Part shown: positions 17,074-26,022 of the stretch, in pieces
Layout: each line of letters opens with the position of its first letter
How positions within the stretch are numbered: position 1 is the first letter of the stretch
IMG/VR virus record: IMGVR_UViG_3300036768_000191
Location: 1-33,111 of that record
Direction: 5' to 3' (one strand)
Origin: a virus
DNA length: 33,111 nt
The notes under the pieces: generated by a model
The model's input: only the letters and a program-made list of their open reading frames with translations
What the model was told of the DNA's origin: nothing
Databases searched by the model: none
Program-made: the position numbers and the translations under genes

Positions 17074-17844
17074 CTACTTGATCCCCTCTGGCCACTCGAG
17101 CTCTTTCAGTTTCTCGAACGGAATCGTTGGCACCCTCAGTTTATCACGCCACGCCGGATCTAAGAAGTAGATGTACCGCAGTTGGTACCCGGGGAGCGCG
17201 CGCATGCCTAGGATCTGTGCCGCGCGCTTGATGCTCGCTGCCCCGCCCATGTGCTCTCTGATGTCGATCCCTGTCGCCGCCTTGATCCGCTCATAGACCG
17301 CGTTGCTTTTCATTGTCGAGAATGTGAGCTGCGTGAAGGTTTCCTTCATCCCGGGGTGGTAGTAGATCGTCGTGTTTTTCTTGATTCCGATAAGGAGAAA
17401 GCCGCTTGCTCGGTAAATCGTTCCACTGCCGGCTTGGGTACCGTCTGCGTAACTCACGACCCACTTGATCTGCGGGAGGTTCTTGCGGATAAGCTTCAGT
17501 GTGATTGCTAGGGCGCGGCTCTCGGTGTTTTTAGGAAGGACAGGGCTCATGTACATTCTGTTCAGTTCTAGAAAACCGTTCCAGTCCGTGTCAGCGACGA
17601 GGGTCAGGCTCTTGCGTTTGTCAATCGGGTGCCCGTATTGCAAAACTCCCTCGAGTTTCCCTTTCCAGAAAACGCCGAAGTGCAGGACGCTCGACGCGGC
17701 GACCTTGTGACTGTAGTGTCCGTTGATGATCATCTCTTTTGCGATTGACGGCGCTATCGTGCGGATCTCTATGTCCTTCGCGCTCTCTCCGTTCTCGGCC
17801 TTGCGTGCCGCCTCGTGGGCTTTGACTGGTGTCTCACTGCTCAT
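17074..17844 (-). CDS. Mom-like DNA adenine-modification protein (GNAT fold)
   Basis: A 256-residue protein resembling the Mom family, whose phage Mu member converts adenine to N6-carbamoylmethyladenine in DNA and so protects it from restriction. Diagnostic pieces in order: AKEMIINGHYSHKVAASSVL (His-Tyr-Ser at 43-45), LHFGVFWKGKLEGVLQYGHP (54-73), FLELNRMYMSP (91-101) and KWVVSYADGTQAGSGTIYRA (127-146), followed by SGFLLIG. The C-terminal 75 residues (ERIKAATGIDIREHMG onward) are an extra basic helical part. The start at 17844 overlaps the C2H2 protein by 11 bases. A tRNA-Gly follows its stop after 6 bases. The upstream ParB-like genes fit a modification cassette. The reaction and donor in this phage are inferred, not shown. 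Confidence 0.85.
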   Translation of the reverse strand: MSSETPVKAHEAARKAENGESAKDIEIRTIAPSIAKEMIINGHYSHKVAASSVLHFGVFWKGKLEGVLQYGHPIDKRKSLTLVADTDWNGFLELNRMYMSPVLPKNTESRALAITLKLIRKNLPQIKWVVSYADGTQAGSGTIYRASGFLLIGIKKNTTIYYHPGMKETFTQLTFSTMKSNAVYERIKAATGIDIREHMGGAASIKRAAQILGMRALPGYQLRYIYFLDPAWRDKLRVPTIPFEKLKELEWPEGIK

Positions 17845-19580: not shown

Positions 19581-20052
19581 GTTCTTCTTCCGGCTTTGCT
19601 GGTGCCGATTCCGACTTATGTTCCGCCTCCTTCTTTGCAAGGTATGCCTCCGGATCGAAAGTTTCGATGTGATTCGCCCGTGCCAAAAGCTCGGCAGCCG
19701 TGCCGCGCGCGTTGCGTGCCCCGGTTTTCATCTTTTCCACGAGTTCGTCAAGCTCAAGGATCCTCAACGCTAGCCGCTCTTCCTCCTTCTCGAGTGCTTT
19801 CAGTTTCTGGCGCGTCTCCCTCGTGTGGTCGTTCTCGTTCGCCTGCTTCTCCTTCAGGTCTGCAATCTTCGCCTTAGTATCGTCGAGTGCCTTGTCCTCA
19901 TCGTCACGGATCGCTCGGACCTCCGGGATCCTTTCCTCGTCGTATGCCGCGCCGGCAAGCTTTTGCATTGCCTGCTCGCGGTATGCAGCGGCAATCTTGG
20001 CCCGGAGTTCTGCGCTTTGTTCTTTGGTGAATAGTATCTCTGGCGGGTTCAT
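19549..20052 (-). CDS. Coiled-coil protein of the early region (167 aa)
   Basis: A long charged coiled coil covers residues 45-115 (ALDDTKAKIADLKEKQANEN, LKALEKEEERLALRILELDE), after a helical start (FTKEQSAELRAKIAAAYREQ). The C-terminal 30 residues are disordered and acidic with histidines (PAKPEEEHGQEHHAPTA). I do not recognise a family. Being in the replication region, it is more likely a DNA-metabolism accessory or nuclease-inhibitor type protein than a scaffold. The leader is AATAACAACACAATC without Shine-Dalgarno. Confidence 0.6.
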   Translation of the reverse strand: MNPPEILFTKEQSAELRAKIAAAYREQAMQKLAGAAYDEERIPEVRAIRDDEDKALDDTKAKIADLKEKQANENDHTRETRQKLKALEKEEERLALRILELDELVEKMKTGARNARGTAAELLARANHIETFDPEAYLAKKEAEHKSESAPAKPEEEHGQEHHAPTA

Positions 20053-20062
20053 GATTGTGTTG

Positions 20063-20350
20063 TTATTCGTTCTCTGCGCTTTGCTCTGCTGTCTCGGAAG
20101 TCATCTTTTCCTGCTCGGTTTGCTCATCGGCCGATGTCTTGGGTTCATCATCGACAAACTCTCCCTCTGGGGTGAGCCCGGTCATCTCCGGTTTCGGTTC
20201 CGGCTCGGTCCCTTCCCGTACCTCCTCGATCCTCGGATTCGTTTCTCCGGCGTTCCAGTTTTCGGCTTCCTCAGGTGTGAGATGCACGATGTCTCCGGCA
20301 ATGTACCCGTTCGTCGGGCGTAAAACCTTGTATGTGTTTCTGTTTTCCAT
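20063..20350 (-). CDS. Acidic small protein (95 aa)
   Basis: The first 40 residues (MENRNTYKVLRPTNGYIAGD, then IVHLTPEEAENWNAGET) resemble a small SH3-like beta domain seen in short phage proteins that describe a border between disordered and folded segments. The remainder is almost all Glu, Pro, Thr, Ser and Asp (EPKPEMTGLTPEGEFVDDEP), strongly negative. Highly acidic early phage proteins are sometimes DNA mimics, but nothing here proves that. It ends 10 bases before the coiled-coil gene. Confidence 0.55.
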   Translation of the reverse strand: MENRNTYKVLRPTNGYIAGDIVHLTPEEAENWNAGETNPRIEEVREGTEPEPKPEMTGLTPEGEFVDDEPKTSADEQTEQEKMTSETAEQSAENE

Positions 20351-20418
20351 GGTTTGTGTTGTGTGTTATTCCCGACCCGGGCGGCTCCCCGCTGGGTTGC
20401 GAGAGTCCGTGTCGATCC

Positions 20419-21012
20419 TCATCGTTCGTGCTTATGAGGTCTTTCCCTGTGGGGAGCAGTCCGTGTCGGGCATGCTTCTAATTTTTTTTTCTTTGTTCCA
20501 TCCACCGCCCGTTCGACCACCGGGCGGGTACGCTGCGCTTGCCGGATCGCTTCGAGGAATAGTGAAACAGGGTTCTCCTCGTCGTCCGTCTCAGCTTGCG
20601 TCAATGTTATGCGTGTCTCTGCCGTTCCGCCGTGGCCGCGGTCGCTTGGTTCCCATGCGAGCGCGCTAATGTTCAGTCGTTTGTCGTTCTCCACGATCGA
20701 ATCTGCAATGGCTCCTGCAGCGTTCTCTGGGTCCGCGTGTGCATTGTTTCCCCATGCAATCTCGACGTGTAGGTGCGCAGCGCGTCCCGGTCTTTCCGTC
20801 TGTATGGGCCGTCCCGGGCGGTTGCGTTCCCTATCCCAAAGTGTAACAATCCCCGTTTGCCGAAGAAACTCCAAAAGCACGTAGTCTTTCCATGCTTGGT
20901 ACCGTTTCGCCGCAGGCGTCCAGTGTTGGTAGTGCGTCTTTTTGATCTTCGGGAGTGGATTGCCATTTTTCTTCTCATGGTTCCCGCGAATGATTGCTGT
21001 GAAGGTTTTCAT
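20419..21012 (-). CDS. RusA-like Holliday junction resolvase, divergent
   Basis: A 197-residue protein. The core (residues about 75-125) fits the RusA pattern: AHLHVEIAWGNNAHADPENA, then AGAIADSIVENDKRLNIS. This aligns with the family motif D-x-D-N-x-x-K-x-x-x-D-A-L...D-D. Asp94, Asn97, Asp104 and Asp110 are present, but the second Asp is Glu96 and the usual catalytic Lys is Gly100. RusA cuts four-way junctions made in recombination and replication. The first 70 residues are basic. A 70-residue disordered basic tail (RTAPHRERPHKHER) extends beyond the usual 120-140 residues. It overlaps the HTH gene by four bases (ATGA). The altered residues make activity uncertain. Confidence 0.6.
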   Translation of the reverse strand: MKTFTAIIRGNHEKKNGNPLPKIKKTHYQHWTPAAKRYQAWKDYVLLEFLRQTGIVTLWDRERNRPGRPIQTERPGRAAHLHVEIAWGNNAHADPENAAGAIADSIVENDKRLNISALAWEPSDRGHGGTAETRITLTQAETDDEENPVSLFLEAIRQAQRTRPVVERAVDGTKKKKLEACPTRTAPHRERPHKHER

Positions 21013-21500
21013 GTGTGATTTTTGTGGTTTTTGATTTCTTTCTTCACGACCGAGATCGGAAGGTCTAGCTCTGCCGCGATCTCTTCATCGTCGTATTCTG
21101 TGTGGTTGTGCATGTCGCGAATGAGCTCCTTTTGCGTTTTCGTGAGAGTTGTTGTCTCCGTCTCCCCTGTCCGTCGTGATTTTGCAATCTCTCCTTTCTT
21201 CTTGAGCATCGTGATCATTGTCGTGACGCTTCCCGGTGTACTGCCGATGATTTTCGCGATCTCGTTTTTGTTCTTCCCTTGCCTGCAAAGCTCTGCAACC
21301 TGTTCTGCCTTCGTCTTTCCTTCCGGATCGTACTGCTTACTCTCTCTGTCTTTGTGTTCATTCTTTGTGCTGATGTGTTTTTCCGGCAGATCCTCCTTTC
21401 CCGATTTTTCCTCGGACCTGATAGTGAATTGCGTCCGTTCCGGAAGTTCTATCGTCACCGCTTCTCCGTCATGTATTGCAAGTGTAATTCTCGTTACCAT
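21009..21500 (-). CDS. Tandem helix-turn-helix DNA-binding protein (163 aa)
   Basis: Three parts are visible. Residues 1-30 are a beta hairpin (MVTRITLAIHDGEAVTIELP), then a charged disordered stretch to about 60. A first HTH (AEQVAELCRQGKNKNEIAKI, then IGSTPGSVTTMITMLKKKG) and a second one (QKELIRDMHNHTEYDDEEIA, then AELDLPISVVKKEIKNHK) follow. Both have the spacing of small MarR- or sigma-4-like HTH units. A transcription regulator of early or late genes is likely. It overlaps the preceding gene by 7 bases. Confidence 0.65.
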   Translation of the reverse strand: MVTRITLAIHDGEAVTIELPERTQFTIRSEEKSGKEDLPEKHISTKNEHKDRESKQYDPEGKTKAEQVAELCRQGKNKNEIAKIIGSTPGSVTTMITMLKKKGEIAKSRRTGETETTTLTKTQKELIRDMHNHTEYDDEEIAAELDLPISVVKKEIKNHKNHT

Positions 21501-22045
21501 GGTGCTTCGTCAAATAACGTCTGGCGCGTCAGGACCGGCCTTCCGTCCTCTGTGATGTCGAGATCTTGCGGTGGTTTCCATCTCGGTCCTTCTCCAAGAA
21601 GTGACGCGATCGTCACTCGGTCCGTGTGCTCGTTCCAGTATCCGATCGTCCTGTTCTCGGTCTTGCTTCTGATCGCTATGCGCGGAAGGTCAATCTCTCC
21701 TCTCCTGAATTGCCCACCTCTCCGGGTAAGGAGCCAGTGTCCGGGTTTGTTTTTTATCCTAGCAACGAGGCCGAATGCTCTCATCTGGCTCAGGCAGTTT
21801 GTGTGCTGGCTTGTGAAGATTCCCTCTCGCGCCGTCCCGATCGGATCTTCGTAAAACCGGATCCGGCTCCCCTCCATCTCTCTCGGGTGAAAGTCGTTGA
21901 TCCCAGTATCACGAATGCGTGCGCCGATCGCTATCAACGCCTCTGCGTGTCCTCGGCTAAGCGTAACCGAGTAGTCCGTGCTCTGCCCGCATGTTTGGCA
22001 GTAGTGTTCCTTGAATGTTTCCGGTTGTTTCTTTTCGTCGTTCAT
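21494..22045 (-). CDS. Early-region protein with Cys knuckle and winged-helix-like domain (183 aa)
   Basis: A Cys-x2-Cys pair (HYCQTCGQSTDYSVTLSRGH) is followed by a helix AEALIAIGARIRDTG, then a segment CLSQMRAFGLVARIKNKPGH that ends WLLTRRGGQFRRGE, which looks like a winged helix with its wing. The C-terminal part (RTIGYWNEHTDRVTIASLLG) is beta-rich. Proteins with this look occur in phages as predicted DNA-binding proteins, but I cannot give a role. The start is preceded by a very clear AACAACAAACGACGACGAAC leader, shared with 27313. Confidence 0.6.
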   Translation of the reverse strand: MNDEKKQPETFKEHYCQTCGQSTDYSVTLSRGHAEALIAIGARIRDTGINDFHPREMEGSRIRFYEDPIGTAREGIFTSQHTNCLSQMRAFGLVARIKNKPGHWLLTRRGGQFRRGEIDLPRIAIRSKTENRTIGYWNEHTDRVTIASLLGEGPRWKPPQDLDITEDGRPVLTRQTLFDEAPW

Positions 22046-22076
22046 GTTCGTCGTCGTTTGTTGTTAATGTTTCCGG

Positions 22077-22364
22077 TCAGTCTCGCCGTCCGGGCGTACC
22101 TCCCGCTGCCCGGATGTCGTCATAGACGCGGTTCTTGATTTCCTTTGTGGCAATCCAAAACGATAGCGCGTCAACCTGTAGGTCGTGGTTGAGGTAGCGG
22201 TTCCGGACCACTTCTGCTTCCCCCCCGGGGTTTTCGATGATGATCGTTCGATGGTTCGGCCGGTTCGGTTGGCTCGCGAGCCCGGCAATCTTGAAACCGA
22301 GCGTATAAAGCGCCGCGGCTTCCCCCATGTCCCTGATCTCGATTGTCTCGTTCGTCGTGTTCAT
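22077..22364 (-). CDS. DUF5659-like small protein (95 aa)
   Basis: MNTTNETIEIRDMGEAAALY begins the protein, followed by TLGFKIAGLASQPNRPNHRT and VDALSFWIATKEIKNRVYD. The order 'diagonal' helix with A-A-x-x-x-L-G-F, a strand of I/F residues and a last helix with K-x-x-I/V-Y fits DUF5659, a family of short proteins in phage and mobile-element early regions. No function is established. An ATG at 22400 is in frame but overlaps the upstream gene, and 22364 has the better leader (agcacaaac). Confidence 0.68.
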   Translation of the reverse strand: MNTTNETIEIRDMGEAAALYTLGFKIAGLASQPNRPNHRTIIIENPGGEAEVVRNRYLNHDLQVDALSFWIATKEIKNRVYDDIRAAGGTPGRRD

Positions 22365-22393
22365 GTTTGTGCTGGAGTGTTGTTGTTTCCAGT

Positions 22394-22855
22394 TTACCAT
22401 GTGTTTGTTGTTGTCATTTCCTTAGCTGTTGATAACTCCCTTCTTGCGTCGTCGAGTGCTGCTTTGTCTGCCTTTATCTCCTCCTCTCGCCTCTTTGCGT
22501 TCGCCCATGCCCTCCGGCTGAGGATCTCCCGGGCCGCTTTGATCCGCGCAATTTCGTTTTCGTAGTGAGTCAGGTCTGTTTTGCCGTTCACTCTGCCGGC
22601 AAGGACCGTAACGTGGCTTCCGGGGATGTGGTTCTCGTCCCTTGCGGCGCAAAGCATGCAGCTTTCCGGACGCCTGTGAATGGCCACCGCTCCTCGCTTT
22701 TCGAGGTATTTTGCCTCGTTAAGCGGGCTCAGTGTGTCCCCGGCAGCGTTGAGATAGCCACCTTCTTCTAGCTCGGCGACGATTTTTCGTGCCTCGTCCT
22801 CCGTTATCTCCGGGCGCACCGGTTTTTGTTCTTCTCGTTTCATCATTCTGCTCAT
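22394..22855 (-). CDS. Hypothetical protein with Cys-x2-Cys and C-terminal coiled coil (153 aa)
   Basis: A Glu/Lys-rich start (ITEDEARKIVAELEEGG) leads to RRPESCMLCAARDENHIPGS, then HVTVLAGRVNGKTDLTHYEN. The Cys-x2-Cys with following His residues may bind metal. Residues 100-150 are a coiled coil (RIKAAREILSRRAWANAKRR). Several in-frame ATGs are close (22855, 22846). I choose 22855, which lies 11 bases downstream of the initiator stop. The function is unknown. Confidence 0.55.
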   Translation of the reverse strand: MSRMMKREEQKPVRPEITEDEARKIVAELEEGGYLNAAGDTLSPLNEAKYLEKRGAVAIHRRPESCMLCAARDENHIPGSHVTVLAGRVNGKTDLTHYENEIARIKAAREILSRRAWANAKRREEEIKADKAALDDARRELSTAKEMTTTNTW

Positions 22856-22866
22856 GGTCGTCGTTG

Positions 22867-23670
22867 TTATCTTGTAAGAATTTTCAGCGCCGTCTCGAGT
22901 GTCCAATGTGGGTACTCGCGCTTCGCTTTTTCATAAGCCCAAAGTATCTGATCGTCATCGAAGGGTTCCAGAGCTTTCGCTGCGCGCAGGTGCCTCTTGA
23001 TCGCTGCGGATGCCTGTCCGTATGTGCGGAATCGTATCCCCCTTTCGCGGAAGTATTGCGCGATCATCGGGAGGTCCCTCCTGTCTGTGCCGTCCTTTCG
23101 CTTGGCGTTGTCCATCCCTTCGAGGTACTTCTCCCAGTCCGGAATCGGATCCTCCGGCCTTGGCCGCCGAACGTGCGCGGGCGCGCTTTCTGCGCGCTCC
23201 GCATTATGTGTATCCTTCATTTCTGTGTATCCTTCCGGTTCATTTTTTGAACCCGGCTTTTGTTCAAAAAGTGAACCCGGATCCGGGTTCATTTTTTGAA
23301 CCCGGCTCTCATCGCTTACCTGCAGGTCGAGGATCGTGTAAACGTTCACCTTCTGGCGCTTTGTCTTCTCGTTCCGCTCCCTTGTGACCGCGATCATTCC
23401 TGCCTGCTCCAGCTTCTTGATCGCACGGATGATCGTGTTCTTCGATCCTATCCCGAGCTTCTCGCCGATCGTGCTATGGCTTGGGTATGCCTCCTGTGTT
23501 ATCCCGGCGTGCCGGCAGAGCACAGCGTAAACCGCGAGCGCTGTCGGTCCGATCTCCCGTGCTTTCCGGTCAATGACCTTATCTTCGATCACAAAGCGGC
23601 CGTGATTCCTCGCGTCTCGGATCTTGATCAGGTCTTTTTTCATGACTTCATTGTGCTCGTCCTCTTTCAT
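22867..23670 (-). CDS. Replication initiator, winged-helix protein with embedded iterons
   Basis: A 267-residue protein. Residues 30-105 form a winged helix: ALAVYAVLCRHAGITQEAYP, SHSTIGEKLGIGSKNTIIRA and IKKLEQAGMIAVTRERNE, the arrangement of phage O-like initiators. Residues 121-145 are a linker (MNPDPGSLFEQKPGSKNEPE) encoded by three palindromic iteron-like repeats. The rest (RFRTYGQASAAIKRHLRAAK, DDDQILWAYEKAKREYPHWT) is a helical C-terminal domain that could recruit a helicase loader. Origin repeats inside the initiator gene, between the DNA-binding and C-terminal domains, are the lambda O pattern. SSB lies directly upstream. No helicase or polymerase gene is seen, so host enzymes are expected to be recruited. 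Confidence 0.8.
   Translation of the reverse strand: MKEDEHNEVMKKDLIKIRDARNHGRFVIEDKVIDRKAREIGPTALAVYAVLCRHAGITQEAYPSHSTIGEKLGIGSKNTIIRAIKKLEQAGMIAVTRERNEKTKRQKVNVYTILDLQVSDESRVQKMNPDPGSLFEQKPGSKNEPEGYTEMKDTHNAERAESAPAHVRRPRPEDPIPDWEKYLEGMDNAKRKDGTDRRDLPMIAQYFRERGIRFRTYGQASAAIKRHLRAAKALEPFDDDQILWAYEKAKREYPHWTLETALKILTR
23235..23305. other. Iteron-like palindromes inside initiator gene: putative replication origin
   Basis: Three units of the type CCGGGTTCA-YTTTTT-GAA lie in 71 bases: 23235-23256, 23263-23280 (opposite orientation) and 23283-23305. The last is a perfect 9-bp inverted repeat (CCGGGTTCA and TGAACCCGG) around five T. Units two and three together make an 18-base perfect palindrome (23273-23290, GAACCCGGATCCGGGTTC). 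The units carry runs of A/T that could help unwinding. The block is in the initiator's linker, where the protein does not constrain the sequence much, consistent with selection at the DNA level. Confidence 0.65.
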
Positions 23671-23731
23671 GTCTCAAGGTGCCTATGTGTGCGTTTCTTG
23701 TGAGTTTCCCGTGAAATTCTCCGGGTTTCTC

Positions 23732-24241
23732 CTAGAATGGGATTTCGTCTGGGTCTGGATTGCCGTTTTTGCCGGGCTCCGGGTAGTTGTAGCTCAGGTT
23801 GTTGTACCCCGGCCCTAATCCATGCCCTGTGGCCTCTATTTTTCCCCGTGGGAGCGTTTTTTGTTCTGGAACGCCTGTTTCATCGCGTTGCACGCTTTCT
23901 ATTGCTCCACGTGTCATTTTTGGTCCAAACTGGACGTTTTCAGCGACAATCTCTGTTCTGCTCCCGGTTGTTCCGTCGTGGTTCTTCCACCGTCTGGTCT
24001 GTAGCCTGCCGGTAACGTAGGCCGTATCCCCTTTTCCGAGGTACCTTTGGACGTTCTCTGCCAGTGCCCCGAATACGACAATGTTGTGGTATTCCACCTC
24101 TTCATGTTTCTGGTTGTCCTTGTCGGTCCATGCCCTGTTCGTTGCAACGCTGAAGCGTGTCACCGTCATCCCGTTTTCCAGCTTTTTGCTCTCCGGCGGC
24201 TGCGAAAGCCGTCCGATGATGTCTGCTCTGTTCAAGTTCAT
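23732..24241 (-). CDS. ssb: Single-stranded DNA-binding protein
   Basis: A 169-residue SSB. Residues 1-110 are the OB fold with the family's signature segments: MNLNRADIIGRLSQPPE, TVTRFSVATNRAW, EEVEYHNIVVFGALAENVQR and GDTAYVTGRLQTRRW. A glycine/asparagine-rich flexible tail follows and ends DPDEIPF, the acidic tip that binds partner proteins in bacterial SSBs. It is likely to coat single strands in replication and to work with the Sak4-like protein encoded just upstream. The start at 24241 has leader cacgagc. Confidence 0.95.
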   Translation of the reverse strand: MNLNRADIIGRLSQPPESKKLENGMTVTRFSVATNRAWTDKDNQKHEEVEYHNIVVFGALAENVQRYLGKGDTAYVTGRLQTRRWKNHDGTTGSRTEIVAENVQFGPKMTRGAIESVQRDETGVPEQKTLPRGKIEATGHGLGPGYNNLSYNYPEPGKNGNPDPDEIPF

Positions 24242-24251
24242 GCTCGTGTAG

Positions 24252-25022
24252 TTACGCTTGAAATGTTGCGACCTTCCTCCAAAGAGTTATGGAGCCATCT
24301 CTGTTCTTCTCTTGCTTCCAATCTGCGGATGTCTCCTTGGTCCACCCTTGCTCGGTTAGCCATGCGATAAATTTTTCGTCTCTCGCAATCCGCTCCGCCT
24401 CTTCCTTCCTGCGCTGTCGTTCCTCTTCTTGCTCCCGTGCGATCTTCTCTCTCTCTTCTTGCCGGATACGTTCTTCGCGCTCAGCTTGCTCGGCTTTTCT
24501 CCTGATCTCTTCCTCTTTCGCTTGTCGTTCGCGTTCCTTTTGGCGCAGCATTTCCAGCTCGATGTCCTTCATCCTTTGTTTTTCACGTGCAAGGTAGTCC
24601 TCGAATTGGTTTGCGTCGAGCTGCATGAGCATTTCGTCGTCCGGGTGATCCTTGTCCGGTATGCCCGCTTCTGTGATCCGCTTGTGCCGTTCCGGGAGGC
24701 TTCTCCGGCGGATCTCCAGCATGGCCGTCCGCCTCGCTTCTTCAATCATTTTCCGCAGACGCTCCTCTTCCGGCTCAATCTCTGCAAGGAGTTCTTTCTC
24801 TTTCGCGATCACTGCCCGTTGGTATGCGAGCGCATCCTCGCGCAGCGCCTTTCCCTTCTTTGTAATCGTTCCGCGCACGTATGCGATCTCCCGCTTTGCC
24901 TCCTCAACGACCCTGATCTCGTCTTCGTCAAATGGGTTCTTTATTTCCCTGATCGCCCCAGTCTTTGCGACTAGGGCGCGGAGTTCGGCGACGGTTGGGT
25001 TGAATGTTTCGAGTTCTTTCAT
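24252..25022 (-). CDS. DUF1351-like coiled-coil protein, recombination accessory
   Basis: A 256-residue protein, MKELETFNPTVAELRALVAK. The N-terminal half (DEIRVVEEAKREIAYVRGTI, KKGKALREDALAYQRAVIAK) has the look of DUF1351/ 'chromosome segregation-like' phage proteins encoded beside single-strand annealing genes. Residues about 150-215 are a very long Arg/Glu coiled coil (EMLRQKERERQAKEEEIRRK). The last 40 residues form a small folded domain (FIAWLTEQGWTKETSADWKQ). It is encoded between the Sak4-like recombinase and SSB, so a role in the same recombination or replication complex is likely. The start at 25022 is 10 bases after the upstream stop. Confidence 0.6.
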   Translation of the reverse strand: MKELETFNPTVAELRALVAKTGAIREIKNPFDEDEIRVVEEAKREIAYVRGTITKKGKALREDALAYQRAVIAKEKELLAEIEPEEERLRKMIEEARRTAMLEIRRRSLPERHKRITEAGIPDKDHPDDEMLMQLDANQFEDYLAREKQRMKDIELEMLRQKERERQAKEEEIRRKAEQAEREERIRQEEREKIAREQEEERQRRKEEAERIARDEKFIAWLTEQGWTKETSADWKQEKNRDGSITLWRKVATFQA

Positions 25023-25032
25023 GGTGGTTTTG

Positions 25033-26022
25033 TTAGATTGCGTTGCTGGTGATGTCTTCTTCGAATTCCGGGTATTGGATCGTCGGAACGTCATCAGTCT
25101 TTGCGGCATTCAATTCGGCCTCCCCCGGCTTCTTCTTGGTCGGGTTCTTGATCTGTGCATCGAGTGCTGCCTCGATCGCGTTTATCTTGTTGCTGTCTAG
25201 GCCGGTCCAGTAAGAGATTGCCTCAAGAATGGCCTCTTTCGTTTCCGGCATGTCCGGATCAAGTTGTTTCAGCTTCCGGACTATTCTCTTCTTTGTTTGC
25301 TTCTCTATTTCTTCTGGGTTATCGCTTCCCTCGTTCAGCCACGCAAGCAATCTTTCCCCGGTTCGCTCGTCGATCGTGAAGATCTCGTTGTCGAACATGC
25401 TCGTTCGGTCCTTACTTGCGCGTGCGTTGTGATTTTGGTCGAGGTCAAGAAAGACCGTGAATTCGTACTCGAGTCCGTCGCGCATGACGGGCGCCATTCC
25501 GACCTTTTTCACGCTGCTTCGTCCTGTCTTTTCATCCCTTTCGAGCGTGTAATCTTGCTTGCTTCTGACCGTCGCAATGATGTGTGCCGGGCTGTTGAGA
25601 AGCGCGTTTACGAGCTTGCGGTATTGCGGCGTTAGGTCCGCCCAGAGTGTGAAGCGGTTCCTTCCGCTCGCTTCCATCTTGTCTGCCTGATCTAGGATGC
25701 CTCCTTCGTCGCTCCATGCGTGGCTCAGGCTGTCAATCACGATTACGTCGTACCCTGAATCCTCTGCAGCGTGTATCGCTTCTTGGTAGCGTTCGGGCTT
25801 GAATGGTGGCGTCAGAGTTATGATGTCGTAATCTGTCAGGTGTGCGTAAAGATCGCCGGAGCCGCGCTCCGTGTCGATCATGCAAATGCGGCCCGTCGGT
25901 CCTGCGACGCCGCGCGCCATTCTGAGTGCGCTGTACGTCTTTCCGGATCCGCTCGGGCCTGCGATAGCAAGGCGGAGCTTCGCCTTCCGTCGCTCTGCCT
26001 TGCGAATAATGATTTTTTCCAT
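25033..26022 (-). CDS. Sak4-like RecA-fold ATPase (phage recombinase)
   Basis: A 329-residue protein with a RecA-type core: LRLAIAGPSGSGKTYSALRM with Walker A at 22-29, GRICMIDTERGSGDLYAHL, and Walker B DVIVIDSLSHAW (Asp97). The strand AHIIATVRSKQDY is the typical sensor region. Such single-domain ATPases of the AAA_24/Sak4 type bind single strands and act with SSB to anneal or pair DNA. The C-terminal 100 residues (EIEKQTKKRIVRKLKQLDPD, KKPGEAELNAAKTDDVPTIQ) are helical and disordered. SSB and the DUF1351-like gene follow directly. The start at 26022 is preceded by acgaaaacgaacc and an AATTATA element 24 bases upstream. Confidence 0.85.
   Translation of the reverse strand: MEKIIIRKAERRKAKLRLAIAGPSGSGKTYSALRMARGVAGPTGRICMIDTERGSGDLYAHLTDYDIITLTPPFKPERYQEAIHAAEDSGYDVIVIDSLSHAWSDEGGILDQADKMEASGRNRFTLWADLTPQYRKLVNALLNSPAHIIATVRSKQDYTLERDEKTGRSSVKKVGMAPVMRDGLEYEFTVFLDLDQNHNARASKDRTSMFDNEIFTIDERTGERLLAWLNEGSDNPEEIEKQTKKRIVRKLKQLDPDMPETKEAILEAISYWTGLDSNKINAIEAALDAQIKNPTKKKPGEAELNAAKTDDVPTIQYPEFEEDITSNAI

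Follow-up and report, generated by a model that had tools for sequence, protein, structure and literature searches.

Replication origins within the gene of their own initiator are known for lambda-like phages and for the staphylococcal plasmid pSK41, which have so far been handled as separate cases. In pSK41, according to a review (PMC5703833), Rep binds four Rep boxes located centrally in rep, ori lies within rep, and the ori-encoded segment forms a deletable linker between the winged helix and the C-terminal domain; the same review describes pPR9, in which a pfam13730 N-terminal domain and an origin have together replaced those of pSK41, and whose rep region supports replication. For the PLE satellites of Vibrio phages, a further paper (PMC8263062) reports a RepA_N initiator whose DNA-binding domain covaries with the iterons while its C-terminal domain is conserved. 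In the pSK41 rep DNA itself we find four TGTC-AAAAG-GACA dyads in the linker at ~22-bp steps, the first with 5-bp arms, and A/T-rich codons behind them. In the phi80 record, gene 15 contains four annotated gp15 sites of TTCCCGAAAACGGGAA-like sequence, spaced at 20-21 bp. Lambda O reads the CCCTC dyad. The rep gene of pUSA03 as given in PLSDB (L302:101-1060) has the same DNA sequence as that of pSK41, although PMC5703833 counts pUSA03 among the pPR9-type hybrid plasmids; because of this identity, the record is no stand-in for pPR9.

Here we describe a comparable arrangement in an uncultured phage. The window, the whole stretch of DNA analysed, makes up one virus record (33,111 bases). Besides genes for terminase, portal and head, it carries the following replication module:

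22867-23670, minus strand: initiator gene (P0001), 267 aa; PF13730 HTH_36 49.1 bits, phrog_270 (replication initiation protein) E 1e-17
23395-23556, minus strand: winged helix, residues 39-92; Pfam match, pLDDT 90-95 over residues 41-100
23437-23439, minus strand: codon of Asn78, the key residue opening the recognition helix; top mutual-information alignment column, helix taken from the model
23137-23331, minus strand: array-carrying linker, residues ~114-178; low pLDDT
22870-23136, minus strand: C-terminal domain, residues ~179-267; homologous to a domain of the L010 initiator described below
23732-24241, minus strand: single-strand binding protein gene, same module as the initiator; PF00436 E 6e-33
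25033-26022, minus strand: Sak4-like AAA gene, same module; phrog_124 E 4e-13, phrog_1366 E 9e-91

The HTH_36 score stands against a Pfam gathering score of 25, and HTH_11 is the only other Pfam match; neither Phage_rep_O (PF04492, at E 0.001) nor RepA_N (PF06970) is matched in Pfam. Besides phrog_270, the protein matches other replication-initiation PHROGs, the O-like ones weakly (phrog_391 E 7.8e-9). In the AlphaFold2 model the winged helix is confident and the linker disordered (pLDDT <50 for most of residues 117-177), and the recognition helix comprises residues 77-89 with Asn78 at its start. Neither fold comparison, in which the best PDB matches were ordinary winged-helix regulators (E 0.0018 and above, none <=0.001), nor sequence search, which returned MarR proteins only (E 0.06), names a replication protein. 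The viral contig collection (viral_contigs) holds no close relative of the whole protein, GenBank phages gave one weak match to it, and the DNA of positions 20001-25000 matched no GenBank phage. Near the terminase gene, the record also encodes a Mom-like DNA modification protein (17074-17844, minus strand; phrog_1384 E 1e-44), possibly for protection of phage DNA from restriction.

Inside the initiator coding sequence, between the DNA-binding and C-terminal domains, three GGTTCA-N5-TGAACC dyads, two exact and one with a single mismatch, span 23237-23302:

23237-23253, no strand: dyad 1, GGTTCATTTTTTGAACC, exact
23261-23277, no strand: dyad 2, TGTTCAAAAAGTGAACC, one mismatch (TGTTCA)
23286-23302, no strand: dyad 3, exact; extends to an inverted repeat with 9-bp arms, 23283-23305
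23272-23291, no strand: 20-base palindrome TGAACCCGGATCCGGGTTCA, made up of the arms that dyads 2 and 3 turn towards each other
23202-23236, no strand: short A-rich stretch that follows the array when read in gene direction, a weak candidate melting region

An earlier note on this DNA had reported three repeats in the linker of a winged-helix initiator, and the dyads beginning at 23237, 23261 and 23286 bear it out, as does the perfect 9-bp inverted repeat around T5 (CCGGGTTCA-TTTTT-TGAACCCGG) into which dyad 3 grows; the palindrome it described between two units is likewise present, with a length of 20 bases rather than the 18 given. Start-to-start steps are 24 and 25 bp. Exactly four copies of the 9-mer TGAACCCGG are present in the 33,111 bases, all of them within the dyad region, and the whole record contains no further exact or one-mismatch dyad. 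Among dyads with 6-bp arms, the linker pair is the window's single case of two identical ones no more than 120 bp apart, and none of 100 first-order Markov windows held any such pair. When codons were swapped among synonymous positions with the protein kept, three of the 2000 permutations retained two exact dyads and none had three dyads with at most one mismatch each. The copies translate as VQKMNP, GSLFEQ and GSKNEP. Within the A-rich flank lies a 15-nt direct repeat (23204-23218 and 23221-23235), and GC-rich DNA follows beyond. GC skew, proposed earlier as a check on the origin, shows no switch at 23.2 kb along the window.

The same dyad recurs in other phage initiators. A strict scan of IMG/VR for two 17-bp dyads within 20 nt returned 6 stretches and its reversed-motif control 0; four of the six (L004, L005, L007, L009) fall in the linker of a winged-helix gene, with N-terminal domains that share 21-25% identity with that of the window gene, L006 is uncertain, and L008 falls outside such a gene. 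The strict dyad scan of bacterial genomes (gap <=30) gave 21 stretches, among which L011 and L027 duplicate L009 and L005, L025 (Patescibacteria) and L015 (Streptococcus ovuberis) are initiators, and L018 is an initiator candidate without a Pfam match; the L015 gene, of the RepA_N family (PF06970), carries four GGTTCA-N5-TGAACC dyads. The other stretches are other things, dispersed repeats among them. Thus in L012 and L020, in L017, L029 and L030, and in L019, L028 and L031, GGTTCA-N5-TGAACC pairs outside initiator genes recur within a genome or in relatives and look like REP/MITE repeats. Two Clostridiaceae genomes each carry an intergenic array of four dyads (L016:3563-3667 and L021:209-313) near an ORF that by eye resembles a tyrosine recombinase; these arrays are possibly the origin of a mobile element lying outside a gene.

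Loosening the IMG/VR scan to two GTTCA-N5-TGAAC dyads (5-bp arms) within 30 nt returned at least 120 stretches. Among the matches listed, the array lies behind a winged helix in the same ORF at 72 of 118 new loci, against 0 of the 29 loci of the reversed-motif control; for comparison, 14 of the 2626 further ORFs at the TGAAC loci contain a winged helix. All placement counts use a winged-helix profile trained partly on the same genes. No recognised winged helix precedes the remaining 46 of the 118 arrays, 13 of which have a winged-helix ORF within 1.5 kb; 24 of 122 TGAAC loci, whose arrays are not covered by any ORF of >=100 aa, entered the neighbourhood count alone. A scan against outside libraries, covering 67 members (66 of the 67 cluster representatives plus the window gene), matched phrog_270 in 34, phrog_186 in 30 and phrog_678 in 29, and in Pfam HTH_36 in 26 and Phage_rep_O in 5. 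By eye, 50 of the 67 TGAAC clusters were judged initiators and 17 set aside (L283, L219, L186, L192, L196, L205, L207, L221, L223, L224, L225, L230, L233, L236, L245, L260, L296). Bacterial genomes carry a TGAAC array in 5/274 and 2/291 cases and a TGCAC array in 2/274 and 0/291; of 13 bacterial loci inspected by eye (L572-L584), L576-L578 repeat L018, L575 may be another candidate, and in the rest the array is not preceded by a winged helix. A short repeat, CAAGTCACGGACTTG or the complementary sequence, recurs as 41-43 nt pairs in many of the viral contigs that the reversed control returned (L305-L308, L310, L311, L314, L315, L317, L319, L322, L323, L325, L326, L330, L331).

Frames, spacings and flanks were compared in 54 genes, namely the 50 initiators judged by eye together with the window gene, L015, L018 and L025. 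Their 187 dyads fall into the three reading frames as 119, 68 and 0, the third being empty because the motif itself would put TGA in frame, and 38 of the 54 genes use both open frames within one gene. A repeat kept for its protein sequence would not mix frames in this way. The earlier suggestion that the linker is shaped by selection at the DNA level gains support from this double use of frames, and also from the excess of the window's dyads over synonymous expectation. Spacings between dyads cluster at 21-24 bp (65 cases), 30-34 bp (24) and 40-45 bp (13), with few at 25-29 bp (6) or 35-39 bp (3); these modes are two, three and four helical turns, and the window's 24- and 25-bp steps, at about two turns, lie beside the group mode of 21-24 bp. 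At 10-70 nt behind the array, A makes up 0.42 of the bases, versus 0.34 over the 60 nt ahead of it (n=53, Wilcoxon p 4e-6); in the first 60 nt behind, taken as two 30-nt bins, the values are 0.457 and 0.426, versus 0.327 and 0.348 in the two bins ahead. The group mean beside the sites is thus raised, but the window itself has only 57% AT over the 30 nt behind its array.

Arrays of this kind are not confined to one half-site. We surveyed 66 PF13730-type genes, picked regardless of repeats, from Bacilli- and Clostridia-type genomes (299 and 291, the classes of G001 and G002) and from 185 genomes in the G005 class. One and the same dyad is present twice or more in 11 of the 66 linkers versus 9 of 632 background windows (Fisher p 2e-7), with TGTCG-N5-CGACA, TGGTC-N5-GACCA and GTGCA-N5-TGCAC among the dyads, which indicates that linker iterons are not rare in PF13730-type genes and that the half-site varies. 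The survey yielded no GGTTCA-N5-TGAACC array beyond the genes already chosen. Bacilli initiators with linker dyads TGTCG/CGACA, TGGTC/GACCA or TGCTC/GAGCA (L053-L055, L105, L049, L103), several of them with arrays at 21-bp steps, offer further classes for a recognition code. In IMG/VR, GTGCA-N5-TGCAC gave at least 120 stretches, 87 of the 120 listed lying behind a winged helix; the lambda-type CCCTC-N5-GAGGG also gave at least 120 loci, and 105 of the 116 listed with an ORF fall in one O-like protein cluster. The idea that TGAAC is unique was dropped, TGCAC being as common and as tied to initiators and further dyads existing in the survey.

Comparison of related initiators, which the earlier note had proposed, cut both ways. 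The phage closest in its Sak4-like protein has an initiator (L010:10904-11614, plus strand) that shares the C-terminal domain of the window gene (32% identity over 87 columns, E 2.9e-7) and has a different N-terminal domain and no dyads, the pattern expected of module exchange. On the other side, 55 of the 66 PF13730-type survey genes have no detectable dyad array in their linkers.

For an alignment of winged helices we took cluster representatives, with a joining threshold of 50% identity over 80 aa, and entered all 58 TGAAC and 60 TGCAC sequences with >=60 residues before the array; a profile filter kept 52 and 42 of them, independently of the judgement of initiators by eye. One alignment (A1), with a tail holding a few linker residues, was trimmed to 125 columns before the box profile, some steps using it whole, and L186 (1297 aa) was left out of the other (A2). 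The key column is the third place of an S-x-x motif that opens the recognition helix: Arg stands there in 39 of 42 TGCAC-array initiators (the exceptions being L470, L473 and L519) and in 0 of 52 TGAAC-array ones (Fisher p 3e-23), the latter having Gly 25, Ala 12, Asn 11, Ser 2 and Thr 2. This column shares 0.877 bit of mutual information with array class, against 0.470 bit for the next one. The window's Asn78 fits the TGAAC class (non-Arg; Gly, Ala, Asn or another small residue). An Arg facing guanine would be the simplest reading of the rule, since the strand opposite TGCAC offers a G at the position at which TGAAC offers T.

On a tree built without the helix columns, array class changes at least 22 times and Arg at least 21 times; independent class-differing pairs on supported branches number only 4 (p 0.125), too few for a test. 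In the array-blind survey (71 genes for this test, one of them, L037, from a genome reached via a dyad-scan locus), >=2 TGCAC dyads occur in 5 of 9 Arg-type genes versus 0 of 62 others (p 1e-5), although four of the five positive genes have near-identical helices and the support therefore amounts to about two lineages. TGAAC dyads are absent from all 8 survey genes whose key residue is Asn or Ala, which leaves that side of the rule without blind confirmation. Among named phages, 3 of 17 regions fetched by protein similarity hold an exact 5-N5-5 dyad in >=2 copies: Alcaligenes phage Piluca (GTTCA, three), vB_AbaSI_1 (GTAAA, three) and Parageobacillus JGon-2020a (GGTTC, two). Piluca, a named isolate, combines its three GTTCA-N5-TGAAC dyads with Ala at the key place (by eye), and C. 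difficile phage AR1074-1 goes against the rule, with an Arg-type helix by eye and no TGCAC dyads. As far as our searches go, the residue-base rule is new, being undescribed in the open-access literature searched, as judged by title and the start of the abstract. Covariation and the array-blind survey would together lend indirect support to binding of the sites by the protein.

We therefore weighed what else the dyads might be. Their chance origin is refuted by the Markov windows and synonymous permutations, which never reproduced the pair or the triple, respectively, and by recurrence and covariation across initiators; the same observations leave very little probability for a hairpin or terminator acting at the RNA level, even though the dyads could presumably form such hairpins. 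Perhaps the linker peptides are functional themselves and the DNA dyads a by-product: GSxxE and VQxxN peptides do recur, GSxxEP repeats among them. However, the two frames give unrelated peptides, within one gene in 38 of 54, synonymous permutation destroys the dyads, and the dyads are helically phased, so that this explanation is largely refuted and the least credible of those considered. A mobile or selfish palindromic repeat of REP or MITE type, settled in permissive linkers, would account for finding the same palindrome dispersed as repeats through some bacterial genomes (L012, L017, L019 and others), but not for its concentration behind the winged helices of unrelated proteins, for spacers and flanks that vary between phages, or for a half-site that follows the recognition helix; it too is largely refuted, and we hold it to be very improbable.

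A more substantial, if still unlikely, competitor is that the dyads serve autoregulation or copy control as sites of the initiator, or belong to another protein such as a repressor, with the true origin elsewhere. The lack of a GC-skew switch at 23.2 kb is in keeping with this, and so are the 13 arrays outside such genes that lie within 1.5 kb of a winged-helix ORF, as operators could. Yet the layout equals that of the proven pSK41 origin and of the annotated phi80 sites, three to seven phased copies sit deep in the gene and not at a promoter, and an A-rich flank lies behind the array; covariation of residue and half-site further speaks against a different reader.

We consider that the repeats are probably phage replication-origin iterons and that the gene containing them encodes their reader, at a probability of roughly 0.83 given the comparative sequence evidence. 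The earlier note's placement of an origin in the initiator gene draws its support from comparison: arrays lie behind winged helices far more often than the reversed motif does, the recognition-helix residue follows the half-site, and the pSK41 origin and phi80 gp15 sites have the same layout. Each GGTTCA-N5-TGAACC dyad would be occupied by a dimer of the winged-helix N-terminal domain, with a recognition helix in either half-site, and the roughly two helical turns from dyad to dyad would align the dimers along nearly one face of the double helix. Once assembled, this complex could then open the A-rich flank behind the array (23202-23236), with the C-terminal domain, on its flexible linker, bringing in the helicase machinery, and the protein sequence of the linker would be free to be dictated by DNA. 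Binding, dimerisation, melting, helicase recruitment and replication start at the array are all steps that we infer.

Beyond this locus, it is reasonably likely that the HTH_36, Phage_rep_O and RepA_N initiators of tailed phages have in common one in-gene iteron geometry and a readable recognition code. The geometry, which we would favour with some reserve, consists of 5-6 bp arms, a 5-bp spacer and two-turn phasing; the code, to which we lean to the same degree, pairs Arg at the third place of S-x-x with TGCAC and Gly, Ala or Asn with TGAAC. If true, site geometry and part of the recognition rule would be common to many phage initiators, and the origins and origin specificity of uncultured phages would be readable from sequence alone; a common geometry and rule would make the origin, and likely the compatibility group, of such a phage predictable from one gene. 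Furthermore, because reader and site travel in one gene, these arrays would supply many natural protein-DNA pairs for the study of winged-helix specificity, which is otherwise hard to predict.

Set beside the described systems, the window gene recalls the RepA_N replicon of pSK41 in its N5-spaced dyads, placed in the linker of the initiator gene at steps near 22 bp, and differs in its half-site, in having a PF13730 rather than a PF06970 initiator, and in belonging to a phage rather than a plasmid. With the hybrid replicon pPR9 it has in common the PF13730 domain, set there on a pSK41 backbone. Palindromic sites also occupy the initiator linker in phi80 gene 15 and lambda O, with other half-sites, and the annotated phi80 sites are 15-16 bp long. 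The PLE satellites resemble the window gene and its L010 counterpart in exchanging the N-terminal domain over a common C-terminal one; their iterons lie in a noncoding region, whereas those of the window lie inside the gene. The architecture, then, is known already, and the half-site class found here, going by the sequence comparisons, spans several initiator families.
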